A stretch of DNA of 64,000 bases, taken from contig JAADYX010000094.1 in the NCBI GenBank assembly GCA_010092885.1, forward strand, positions 32,710 through 96,709, written 5' to 3'. A program made the position numbers and the translations under genes. Position 1 is the stretch's first letter. The number at the start of each line of letters is the position of its first letter. The DNA is from Chloroflexota bacterium. Lineage in GTDB: Bacteria > Chloroflexota > Anaerolineae > Aggregatilineales > UBA3940. This document shows, one piece after another, positions 54,496 to 59,685 of the stretch. The notes under the pieces were generated by a model. It had not been told where the DNA came from, did not search any database, and saw only the letters and a list, made by a program, of their open reading frames with translations.

Positions 54496-54654
54496 CTCAG
54501 GCAGAGTATGCCGTACTCGGAGACGCATTGCTAAAGACAGGAAGTCAGCCGGACTCGATTTGAGAAGAAAGTACCGTCACTGTGAATCACTTTCGGGGGG
54601 TGCACCGGGTGGGTTAAACTATGGAGACAACGTTTGCTGCTCCCGGAGAAAATC

Positions 54655-57600
54655 ATGCCGCCATTTGCCCATCTTCACGTCCATACTGAGTACTCTCTGC
54701 TTGACGGCATGAGTCGCATTGATGACCTTGTTGCATACACCAAAGAGCTGGGCATGTCTCACCTGGCGATCACCGATCACGGTGCAATGTATGGCGTCAT
54801 GCAGTTCTATCGTGCCTGCAAGAAGAACGATATCCATCCGATCATCGGGCTGGAAGCCTATCTGGCGCCGCGCGGGATGACCGACCGCGATCCGCAGTTG
54901 GACAAGCGCTACACGCATCTGCTGCTGCTGGCCCAAAATCAGACCGGTTACCTGAATCTGCTGAAGATCGCGAGTGCCGCCCAGTTGGAAGGCTATTACT
55001 ATAAGCCTCGCATCGACAAGCCGTTCCTAGCTGAGCACAGCGAGGGCATTATCTGCACATCTGGCTGCCTGGCTGCTGAGATCCCGCAGATGCTGGTGCA
55101 AGGTCGCATTGATGAAGCCAAGCGCACACTCGGCTGGTATGCCGATGTGTTCGGGCGTGACCGCTTCTTCATCGAGCTTCAAGAACACGACATCCCGGAC
55201 CTGCACGCTGTCAACGAACAGCTTTATGAACTCGGCCCCTACGCCGACCTTCAGTTCCTGGCAACCAATGACGTGCATTACGTGCGTGAATCCGATGCGG
55301 AAACGCATGATCTTCTGCTGTGCATCCAGACGGGGGCGCTTCACTCCGACGAGAACCGCATGCGCTTCAGTGATCAGGGGTATTACGTCAAGTCCCCCGC
55401 GGAAATGTGGGACATCTTTGGTGATATCCCCGAGTCGCTGGAAAACACCGTCCGTATCGCCGAGAGATGTGAAATCAACCTGGACGACGAGAGCTACAAG
55501 CTCCCCTTGTTCCCCGTTCCCGATGGGTATGATGCGCAGAGTTATCTCCATGACCTGGTTCAACAAGGCGTTCAGTGGCGGTACGGTGAGTATGCCGACT
55601 CCGCGGAAGTACAGGAGCGCGTGGCCCACGAGCTGCGCATTATCCACGACATGGGGTTTGACACCTACTTCCTGATTGTCTGGGACCTTTGCGAGTTCGC
55701 ACAGGACAGGGGCATCTGGTGGAATGTGCGTGGGTCTGGCGCCGGTTCAGTTGTGGCCTATGCGCTGGGGATCACCGGTATTGACCCGTTGGAGAACGGC
55801 CTCATCTTCGAGCGCTTCCTCAACCCGGGGCGCAATACCATGCCCGATATCGACATCGACTACCCGGATGACCGTCGTGCTGAGATGATCCAATACTGCG
55901 TGGACCGCTACGGCGAAGACAAGGTCGCGCAGATCATTACCTTCGGAACATTGGGGGCGCGTGCCGCCGTCCGTGATGTAGGCCGTGCGCTGGATATCCC
56001 CCTGGGGGAAGTCAACCAGCTGGCCAGCACGATCCCGGCTGTGCCAGGCAAACCGGTCACTTTGAAGCAGATGCTTGATGACCCGGACAATCCCGAGTTC
56101 CGTGATTTTCACGGCCTGTACACTGAAACAGGCCGCTCCTACCTGCGTCGGGTGGTGGATACCGCTGTCAAGTTGGAAGGCATCGCGCGGCATGCCAGCA
56201 CCCATGCTGCGGGTGTACTCGTCGCGGACCGGCCGTTGGTGGAATACACACCGCTCAACCGGCCCACCAGCTCTTCGAACGAAGGGCTGGGCACCGTTTC
56301 CCAGTGGCCTATGGAAATCGTTGAGTCAATCGGCCTGCTGAAGGTAGACTTCCTCGGCCTGCGCACCCTGACCGTCATGCGCAAGGCCTGCGCATTGATC
56401 GAGGAACGGCACGGCATCTCGTTCGACCTGAACAACATCCCCTACCGGCACTATCTGCCACCACAGACCTCGGAAGAGGAAGCACACAATGCCCAGCTGG
56501 ATGCCGCCTTCCGGCTGCTGTCGGCAGGCAATACCGGCGGCGTGTTCCAGGTGGAAGGCCAAGGCATGACCCGCACCCTGATCGACATGCAGCCCAGCCG
56601 CTTTGAGCATATTATCGCCGCGATCTCGCTCTTCCGCCCGGGGCCCATCGAGTACATTCCGCAGTACATCCGGCGTATGCATGGTGAGGAGGAGGTCACC
56701 TACAAGCATGAGAAGCTGCAGGACATCCTGGCCGAGACGTATGGCATCATCGTCTACCAAGAGCAGATCATGCAGATCGCCAGCAGCCTGTTCGGCTACG
56801 ATCTGGGCGAGGCAGACCTGATGCGCCGCGCCGTGGCGAAGAAAAAAGCCAAAGAACTTGCCAAACACAAACAGACCTTTATGGAGAGTGGCCCTCAGTA
56901 CGGGGTCAATACCGAAACAGCGGAGTTGATCTTTGACGATATCGAGTACTTCGCGCGCTATGGTTTCAACAAGTGCGTGACTGCTGATACCCTCGTGCTG
57001 GATGCGTCAACCGGACGCCAGATCCGCATCGGAGATCTGGCCAGCGGTGCAGCGGCGATCGGGCACACACTCTCCCTGAACACGGACAACCTCAAGCTGG
57101 CTCAGGCCGCCGTCTCCGCGATCCACTACAACGGCACCAAACCTGTCTACCGGTTGACCACCCGCCTGGGCCGCCAGATCGAGGCGACGACCAACCACCC
57201 TCTCTACACATTTGACGGCTGGACCCTCCTCGGCGATCTACAGCCTGGCGACCAGATCGCGCTGCCGCGCCGCATTCCGGTTGAGGGACAGCGCACCTGG
57301 CCACGCCACAAGCTGATCGTGCTCGGGCATCTGCTGGCGGAAGGCAACGAATGCCGCACGCATGGCGTGTATTACTTCACCGATGATCCAGAGCATCTGA
57401 GTGACTATGTAACCCACATGGAGCAGTTCCCAAACGTGCGCGCGTCTATCTCAAGGCGCAGGCGGCGGATCGCGGTGTACAGCAAGCGCATCAACCCGCA
57501 GGAACCCCAGCACCTCGTTGAGTGGGTGCGCGGCCTCGGCCCATGGGGTGAGGATGCATCCGACAAGTTTATACCTGATGAGGTCTTCGAGCTGACGAAT

Positions 57601-59685
57601 GCCAGTATCGCGCTGCTGTTGGGGCGCATGTGGGAGGGCACAGGCCGCATCAATGCCAGTTCGCGCACCCTGGTCTATGTGACAGCCTCCGAGCGGCTGG
57701 CCCGCCAGCTCCAACATCTGCTGCTGCGCTTTGGTATCATCAGCCGTCTTCGTGTAGAAACGGACAAGTACCGCACAGGACGATCCGGCTACCAGCTGTT
57801 CATCAGCGGCAACGCAAATTTGGCCCGCTTTAGTGAGACTATTGCCGCCCATTTCGTCTCACGCCGCAGCAAGCAGGCCATCAGCAATCTCGTTCTCAAA
57901 CGGACCACAGCCAGCACCCGCGATGTGATCCCCGTGGCAGTTAAGAACACGGTTCGCGAGGAAAAGGCCCGCACCGGCCTCACCTGGCAGCAGATCGGTG
58001 TTGCACCGCGGGAGTTCTACCCCTCAACAGCCGCGGGCAAGTCCGGCTACAACCGGCAGGTGATCGAGCGGGTCGCCGAATCGCTGAACTCCGATGATCT
58101 CAGGGCCTATGCGCGCAGCGATATCTACTGGGATGAGATTGTGTCCATCGAATACGCCGGGCACAAACCAACCTACGATCTGACTGTGCCCGGGCCGCAC
58201 AACTTCATCGCCAACGATATCATCGTGCACAACTCCCACGCGGCGGACTACGCTGTGCTCACTGTACAGACAGCGTATCTGAAGGCACATTATCCACACG
58301 AGTATATGGCCGCCCTGCTGACCACCGAGCATGCGGACAGCGCCAAGGTGTCGCGGTACATCAACGAGTGCCGCCGCATGGAAATCGACGTTCTGCAGCC
58401 GCAGATCAACACTAGTGCATACGACTTCACCATTGAACCACAGCAAGGTGGGCGCGACGCGCTGCGGTTTGGCATGGCAGCCATCAAGAATGTGGGGGAT
58501 GCATCCATTGAGTCCGTCCTTGAGGCGCGTGCTGACCGGCCCTTCACCTCTATGGATGAGTTCTGCGAGCGCGTCGACCTGCGCGATGTAGGCAAGAAGG
58601 CCCTCGAATGCATGATCAAGGTGGGCATGTTTGACCGGTTCGCTGACCGGCCTCGCCTGCTCGAGTCGCTCGACCGCATGATGGGCCGCAGCTCACAGCA
58701 CCATAAGGCAGCCGACATCGGGCAGATGTCGCTGTTCGGCGGGGGCGCGGACTCACCCCCAGAGATCGGCGGGGTGCTCGTTGACCGCCCACGCTTTGAA
58801 GTACCGCATCGTGAACAGCTGCAGTGGGAGCGTGAGCTCGTCGGCGTGTACGTCTCCGAGCACCCACTCGACAAGATCGGCGACCAGATCGACACAGCGG
58901 TAACCGCCTACAGCTACGACCTCACTGAAAACGATCATGACCGGCAGGTCACCATGGCCGGGGTGGTGACCGAAGTCCGCACGCACATCACCCGCAGTGG
59001 CAAGCAGATGGCCTTCGCAGAGGTGGAGGATCGCTACGGCAGCATCTCCGTACTGGTATGGCCTGGCACTTGGGAGCGCACCCGCGAGCTGTGGCAGGTG
59101 GACAACATCCTGTTCCTGCGCGGCCGCATCGATGCGGAAGGCCGGGCGCCCAAACTCCTGTGTGACGAGGCCACCACGCGCCTGGAGATCATGCATGAGG
59201 TCCCGGCACCGGAGGAAGAACCGCCTCCCTACGAGCCGCCACCTCCGCCCGAGCTGCCAGCGGATCTCTTCCCGCCGGAGGAGTTCATGCCGGAGGAGGA
59301 GCTCCCCCACGAGCCCGACGAACCTGTACCAGACGATGAACCGGTTGAACCACTTGCCGAAGAGATCGAGCCCCACGATGCTTATGTGGCTCATGCAAAT
59401 GGGCATGATGATGAGGACACCGCACCCGCCGATCAGGAGGGCATTCATGTGGTGATCCGGCTGATGCGCAGCCCAAGCGAGGCACAGGACATGCGGCGCA
59501 TTCAGCGGATCCACGGGCAGCTGATCGCGCGCCCCGGCCATGACACCTTCTCCATTGAGCTGGTCGGCGACCAACGCCGTGTCCAATTCGCATTTGATGA
59601 GGCGATCTGCTACGAGGAAGTGCGGGATTGGTTGGACAGGCATTTGCACGCGGAAGAAGGGGTGAGCGTTGACGAGCAGCTGTGA
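54655..59685 (+). CDS. dnaE: DNA polymerase III alpha subunit interrupted by an intein
   Basis: PHP domain FAHLHVHTEYSLLDGMSRI, active site NTMPDIDIDYPDDRR, RGSGAGSVVAYALGIT; host sequence ...FARYGFNK | SHAADYAVLTVQTAYLKAHYPHEY...; start taken at ATG 54655. Confidence 0.97.
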   Translation: MPPFAHLHVHTEYSLLDGMSRIDDLVAYTKELGMSHLAITDHGAMYGVMQFYRACKKNDIHPIIGLEAYLAPRGMTDRDPQLDKRYTHLLLLAQNQTGYLNLLKIASAAQLEGYYYKPRIDKPFLAEHSEGIICTSGCLAAEIPQMLVQGRIDEAKRTLGWYADVFGRDRFFIELQEHDIPDLHAVNEQLYELGPYADLQFLATNDVHYVRESDAETHDLLLCIQTGALHSDENRMRFSDQGYYVKSPAEMWDIFGDIPESLENTVRIAERCEINLDDESYKLPLFPVPDGYDAQSYLHDLVQQGVQWRYGEYADSAEVQERVAHELRIIHDMGFDTYFLIVWDLCEFAQDRGIWWNVRGSGAGSVVAYALGITGIDPLENGLIFERFLNPGRNTMPDIDIDYPDDRRAEMIQYCVDRYGEDKVAQIITFGTLGARAAVRDVGRALDIPLGEVNQLASTIPAVPGKPVTLKQMLDDPDNPEFRDFHGLYTETGRSYLRRVVDTAVKLEGIARHASTHAAGVLVADRPLVEYTPLNRPTSSSNEGLGTVSQWPMEIVESIGLLKVDFLGLRTLTVMRKACALIEERHGISFDLNNIPYRHYLPPQTSEEEAHNAQLDAAFRLLSAGNTGGVFQVEGQGMTRTLIDMQPSRFEHIIAAISLFRPGPIEYIPQYIRRMHGEEEVTYKHEKLQDILAETYGIIVYQEQIMQIASSLFGYDLGEADLMRRAVAKKKAKELAKHKQTFMESGPQYGVNTETAELIFDDIEYFARYGFNKCVTADTLVLDASTGRQIRIGDLASGAAAIGHTLSLNTDNLKLAQAAVSAIHYNGTKPVYRLTTRLGRQIEATTNHPLYTFDGWTLLGDLQPGDQIALPRRIPVEGQRTWPRHKLIVLGHLLAEGNECRTHGVYYFTDDPEHLSDYVTHMEQFPNVRASISRRRRRIAVYSKRINPQEPQHLVEWVRGLGPWGEDASDKFIPDEVFELTNASIALLLGRMWEGTGRINASSRTLVYVTASERLARQLQHLLLRFGIISRLRVETDKYRTGRSGYQLFISGNANLARFSETIAAHFVSRRSKQAISNLVLKRTTASTRDVIPVAVKNTVREEKARTGLTWQQIGVAPREFYPSTAAGKSGYNRQVIERVAESLNSDDLRAYARSDIYWDEIVSIEYAGHKPTYDLTVPGPHNFIANDIIVHNSHAADYAVLTVQTAYLKAHYPHEYMAALLTTEHADSAKVSRYINECRRMEIDVLQPQINTSAYDFTIEPQQGGRDALRFGMAAIKNVGDASIESVLEARADRPFTSMDEFCERVDLRDVGKKALECMIKVGMFDRFADRPRLLESLDRMMGRSSQHHKAADIGQMSLFGGGADSPPEIGGVLVDRPRFEVPHREQLQWERELVGVYVSEHPLDKIGDQIDTAVTAYSYDLTENDHDRQVTMAGVVTEVRTHITRSGKQMAFAEVEDRYGSISVLVWPGTWERTRELWQVDNILFLRGRIDAEGRAPKLLCDEATTRLEIMHEVPAPEEEPPPYEPPPPPELPADLFPPEEFMPEEELPHEPDEPVPDDEPVEPLAEEIEPHDAYVAHANGHDDEDTAPADQEGIHVVIRLMRSPSEAQDMRRIQRIHGQLIARPGHDTFSIELVGDQRRVQFAFDEAICYEEVRDWLDRHLHAEEGVSVDEQL
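56974..58233 (+). mobile_element. In-frame DnaE intein (420 aa) with LAGLIDADG-like homing endonuclease domain
   Basis: Cys1 (CVTADTLVLD), block B TTNHPLY, block F/G YDLTVPGPHNFIANDIIVHN, +1 Ser; DOD-like motifs LIVLGHLLAEG (57313-57345) and IALLLGRMWEG (57607-57639). Confidence 0.95.

Follow-up and report, generated by a model that had tools for sequence, protein, structure and literature searches.

The dnaE gene in the stretch of DNA analyzed here, 64,000 nucleotides from a Chloroflexota bacterium (the window), is interrupted by a class 1 intein which, with a probability of about 0.85, belongs to a horizontally spread family specific for a single site, is competent for splicing and carries a homing endonuclease in an early stage of decay. 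We propose that the inteins of this family, inserted at YGFN[KR]|SH, would pass from endonuclease-driven homing through erosion to loss, and that the window copy would have preserved splicing, its LAGLIDADG endonuclease starting to decay with the substitution D223T. The window intein itself is ordinary in kind. In its host order, closely related species have the same site empty, occupied, or filled by a catalytically damaged, a half-eroded or a mini intein, and the homing cycle of gain, fixation, endonuclease decay and loss, together with a co-conversion footprint, is directly testable in this order.

The dnaE open reading frame at 54634-59685 contains no stop codon, and its translation reads from DnaE through the insert and back into DnaE. 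The ATG at 54655 is the likely start codon. The host gene encodes the alpha subunit of DNA polymerase III, with the PHP, polymerase, fingers, HHH and OB domains found by Pfam. The earlier note had placed a 420-residue in-frame intein at 56974-58233 between FNK and SHAADYA, and translation, profiles and empty relatives confirm this assignment to the base: the segment encodes exactly 420 residues in frame, from Cys1 to H419 and N420, followed by Ser+1. The intein-free alleles that were to be looked for in relatives are present, as the aligned dnaE genes of six other members of the host family read YGFNKSHAADYA without a gap; therefore, the borders of the intein are exact. A search with the PF14890 profile found no other intein in the window's own genome. 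The coordinates of the features are listed in Table 1.

Table 1. Features of the dnaE gene and its intein, in window coordinates.
Feature	Position	Strand	Evidence
N-extein, DnaE to ...YFARYGFNK	54655..56973	+	Pfam PHP, DNA_pol3_alpha, DNA_pol3_finger; alignment to intein-free DnaE of relatives
Class 1 intein, 420 aa, at YGFNK|SHAADYA	56974..58233	+	Translation, profiles, empty-site alignment
Hint N-terminal part, intein residues 1-100, Cys1	56974..57273	+	Profiles, alignment, model
Block B TTNH (Hint N-terminal part)	57187-57198	+	Intein residues 72-75
Homing endonuclease domain with linkers and accessory segment, residues 101-380, probably inactive	57274..58113	+	LAGLIDADG_3; 5/39 conserved columns broken
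LAGLIDADG motif 1 (block C) LGHLLAEG, acid E123 conserved	57322..57345	+	Alignment; model helix 111-121 ends here
LAGLIDADG motif 2 (block E) RMWEGTG	57625..57645	+	Alignment; model helix 209-223
Thr223 codon ACA, replacing the catalytic Asp	57640-57642	+	Alignment
Hint C-terminal part, residues 381-420, terminal HN	58114..58233	+	TIGR01443, alignment
C-extein of DnaE from Ser+1 (codon TCC)	58234..59685	+	Translation, Pfam

The Pfam search for Hint and LAGLIDADG domains that the earlier note had suggested returned Intein_splicing (PF14890, E = 3.4e-26) and LAGLIDADG_3 (PF14528, E = 2.3e-14), and the NCBIfam models of the intein termini, TIGR01445 and TIGR01443, both score above their cut-offs. 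The residues of class 1 splicing, namely Cys1, TTNH at residues 72-75, H419-N420 and Ser+1, had been described as intact, in agreement with our translation and alignment. None of the 39 conserved Hint columns, a conserved column being at least 95% identical among the other inteins of the order, is broken in the window intein. The AlphaFold model of the intein has a pLDDT of 89.9 and a pTM of 0.90, and its best match in the PDB is the TliVMA intein endonuclease with a TM-score of 0.76; the top solved folds comprise TliVMA, PI-PfuI and PI-SceI, with DnaB mini-inteins for the Hint part. Judged from its sequence, the window intein looks splicing-competent, and in the cell splicing would start with an acyl shift at Cys1, proceed by transesterification to Ser+1 and end with the cyclization of Asn420 and a final acyl shift, leaving a continuous DnaE of about 1256 residues. 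The unbroken splicing residues would also suit an intein retained for the benefit of its host, for instance through conditional splicing of DnaE, and conditional splicing has been reported for the mycobacterial DnaB intein (PMC7360933). We consider such a benefit very improbable, as an essential gene requires splicing whether or not the intein helps, and six members of the host family as well as most of the order do without the intein.

The endonuclease reading frame in the window is open and full length, and the two LAGLIDADG helices, residues 111-121 and 209-223, are present according to the model and the PF14528 match. Double-strand cutting by LAGLIDADG enzymes needs both catalytic acids, as is established for the class with PI-SceI and I-DmoI. 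In the window intein an acid closes only one of the two helices. Motif 1 (LGHLLAEG) has Glu at the catalytic position (E123), as in all relatives, whereas position 223 in motif 2 (RMWEGTG) is Thr in place of the Asp found in all 23 other aligned full-length inteins, which read RMWEGDG, RMWDGDG, RLWEGDG, KMWQGDG or KMFQGDG. Among the aligned full-length inteins at this site, a catalytic residue is lost in the window copy only. The Thr223 codon ACA is at least two base changes away from either Asp codon (GAC, GAT), and D223T is thus unlikely to stem from a single read error. The nearby E221 is replaced by Gln in all six Patescibacteria-type sequences, indicating that it is not the conserved catalytic acid. 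The claim that both LAGLIDADG motifs keep an acid thus stands for motif 1 and fails for motif 2, in which the remaining glutamate is not at the conserved position. In addition, 5 of the 39 conserved endonuclease columns are broken in the window intein (L126E, Y135F, D223T, A236V and F264D), a contrast with the 0/39 of the Hint part that is marginal when taken alone, and the accessory segment is short by four residues in the alignment. The deep-branching full-length intein of genome G016 has 8 of 42 conserved columns broken and keeps its catalytic acids.

The open frame, the retained E123 and the confidently predicted fold could be taken to mean that the endonuclease is active and the intein homes, with Thr223 or another residue such as E221 supporting metal binding. 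This is improbable in view of the invariance of Asp223 in the other full-length inteins and of the Gln at position 221 in the Patescibacteria-type sequences. The PhoVMA intein, like the window intein, is large, has an intact splicing domain and has lost the catalytic acid of block E; it did not cut, and cutting was restored by grafted active sites (PMC8966425). However, PhoVMA occupies an archaeal VMA site, lacks both acids and has a truncated block E, whereas the window intein carries a single substitution at the catalytic position. A plausible reading is corrected here, since an endonuclease frame of full length that has acidic letters close to the motif is no evidence of activity. Returning to an endonuclease in decay, the window copy is probably past active homing. 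The earlier note had called the intein still mobile, which becomes doubtful with the loss of the second catalytic acid; other conserved endonuclease residues are changed as well, whereas the conserved Hint residues are all kept. The intein is unlikely to be mobile at present through its own enzyme. It could yet move by ordinary recombination or with the enzyme of a relative, and a LAGLIDADG enzyme with a single acid might still nick DNA.

The position of the insertion was compared with that of the cyanobacterial split DnaE intein (Npu/Ssp), which has the host gene and the conserved stretch in common with the window intein. In two cyanobacterial genomes the N-part ends with ...FAEY|CLSYDTE and the C-part begins with ...ASN|CFNKSH, placing the YGFNK|SH site four residues downstream, as the earlier note had stated. 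The split intein differs in its position (Y|CFNK, four residues ahead of K|SH), in its Cys+1 and in being encoded by two genes; it is not known to have an endonuclease. The window intein is thus not of the split type located before CFNKSH, and the split DnaE intein 7qil gives a weak sequence match to it (E = 0.015). The best relatives outside DnaE are DnaB inteins (PRK07773 of NCBIfam, 314 bits over residues 1-420; 1mi8 and 4o1r). Similar to the DnaB inteins at SIEQDAD (Ssp/Npu and mycobacterial), the window intein is of class 1 with C1, Ser+1 and the same order of Hint and DOD-type endonuclease parts, but it has another host gene and target and falls in a separate, fully supported clade. Several genomes of the order (L158-L162) also carry DnaB inteins at SIEQDAD/SLEQD (C1...HN|S), and these form a clade of their own.

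In a search of 85,462 species genomes, the top matches were inteins at exactly this dnaE site. The closest were found in a genome from the same Chloroflexota order (55% identity) and in Candidatus Aquidulcis (48%), and site inteins at 33-39% identity were found in Moranbacteria, Nealsonbacteria, Yonathbacteria, Taylorbacteria and unnamed relatives. The window insertion lies exactly between K/R and Ser of YGFN[KR]SH. The earlier note had inferred an independently acquired intein; the site proved to be common to a family across the order, another Chloroflexota lineage, several Patescibacteria and a viral contig. With the Chloroflexota and Patescibacteria inteins at YGFN[KR]|SH and the viral one at AFNK|SH, the window intein shares site, architecture and 33-61% identity, and it differs from them in that the full-length ones keep Asp223 and many in the order are shortened. 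The viral representative (L215, an IMG/VR contig) is a full-length intein in DnaE with an intact GDG motif, and phages may spread the family with such copies, in which the LAGLIDADG acids are intact. No published description of the YGFN[KR]|SH family was found in the literature searched, although one may exist. For Desulfonema ishimotonii, a 415-residue DnaE intein has been reported (PMC6390638).

Within the order, the dnaE stretch was matched in 151 of 154 genomes, and an intein lies exactly at the site in at least 37 of these 151. These comprise the window, 33 genomes whose intein was read completely and three for which the N-terminal junction was read. The 34 complete inteins comprise 17 of full length (420-427 residues) and 17 shortened ones (141-341 residues). 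In one host genus with very similar DnaE, two genomes are empty (G015 and G026), one has an eroded intein of 244 residues (G040) and one a full intein of 423 residues (G021). About eleven shortened inteins (L115, L116, L119, L121, L122, L125, L200, L206, L207, L209 and L210) are devoid of the first LAGLIDADG half and retain a recognizable second half (HQLQHLLLRLGI) without catalytic residues. These remnants may reflect either common descent or a structural role, and the half-endonuclease minis as a single clade gave an AU p value of 0.51, with long branches.

In the intein tree, the inteins of the site family form one clade apart from the DnaB inteins with support of 100/100. On the DnaE tree of 79 rows, occupied and empty alleles are scattered and the presence of the intein changes 19 times, and a single clade of the inteins from the host family f2 was rejected (AU p = 0.008; 0.003 without G016). 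A clade of the order's inteins without that of Candidatus Aquidulcis was borderline (AU p = 0.052), and we therefore propose no transfer to or from this lineage. The endonuclease was lost several times: at least six changes between full and shortened forms are forced by well supported branches, and 11 occur on the best Hint tree. The patchy distribution and the tree conflict argue for horizontal spread of the family, in support of the acquisition that the earlier note had inferred.

GC3 of the intein is 75.5, compared with 73-75 for the host gene and a mean of 74.4 (sd 3.1) for other genes. As it equals that of the host gene, the intein did not arrive recently from a genome that differs in composition, which is in keeping with long residence. 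The same GC3 would suit a vertical relic, in which an intein of the host family's ancestor was lost from the other sampled members and not gained separately in the line leading to the window, and so would the deep, unresolved branch of the window intein among the order's inteins and the TCN codon at Ser+1 in all empty alleles of the family, as in occupied alleles. Such descent requires several precise losses among six relatives, and the trees favour neither gain nor loss on the window branch; we regard it as possible but somewhat doubtful. It concerns history only and is compatible with a decayed intein of the site family.

The codon of Ser+1 was compared between occupied (L112-L128 and L198-L214) and empty (L003-L031) dnaE loci of the same order. 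It is TCN in 33 of the 34 occupied alleles of the order, and the empty ones have TCN in 19, AGY in 14, Ala in 11 and Pro in one. The first base of this codon gave the strongest signal (p = 1.3e-7) of 6834 base tests over about 770 codons around the site in 34 occupied and 45 empty alleles, in part owing to Ala and Pro, which are impossible at +1 of a splicing allele. When only Ser alleles were used, p was 9e-5, and other serine columns reached at best about 0.03. Among 17 pairs that are phylogenetically independent, an average of 9.0 show the codon changing together with the intein and 0.1 show the contrary, with p between 0.0005 and 0.07 and a median of 0.004; the codon-footprint hypothesis was formed on the same data that gave all these p values. 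Since TCN and AGY are more than one substitution apart, the codon probably travels with the intein or is needed by the endonuclease. Long co-conversion tracts were rejected, as the drop in identity of the flanks is confined to about 10-25 codons and absent from some pairs. For haloarchaeal MCM inteins, the co-conversion of a flanking codon has been described, as has Pro at +1 as an invasion-hindering allele (PMC10643990). A wider reading, with every stage of homing represented at one site, a TCN footprint from short co-conversion or an endonuclease requirement, and phage DnaE as a vehicle, is tentative, its chances falling a little short of even.

Twelve empty alleles (L015, L018, L021, L023, L024, L026, L029, L030, L130, L183, L196 and L197) read YGFNK|AH or PH, eleven with Ala and one with Pro at +1, residues unable to splice. 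Empty alleles of this kind are possibly resistant to invasion.

This DnaE stretch is a hot spot of intein insertion. In a further viral contig (L278), the DnaE intein lies before SWGFNKSH, a third position in this stretch, and by eye it looks HNH-like rather than LAGLIDADG. Another dnaE intein site, TYG[IV]|C.YQEQ, is occupied by a different intein lineage in L129, L130 and L131, and the dnaE of L129 holds inteins at both this site and YGFN[KR]|SH.
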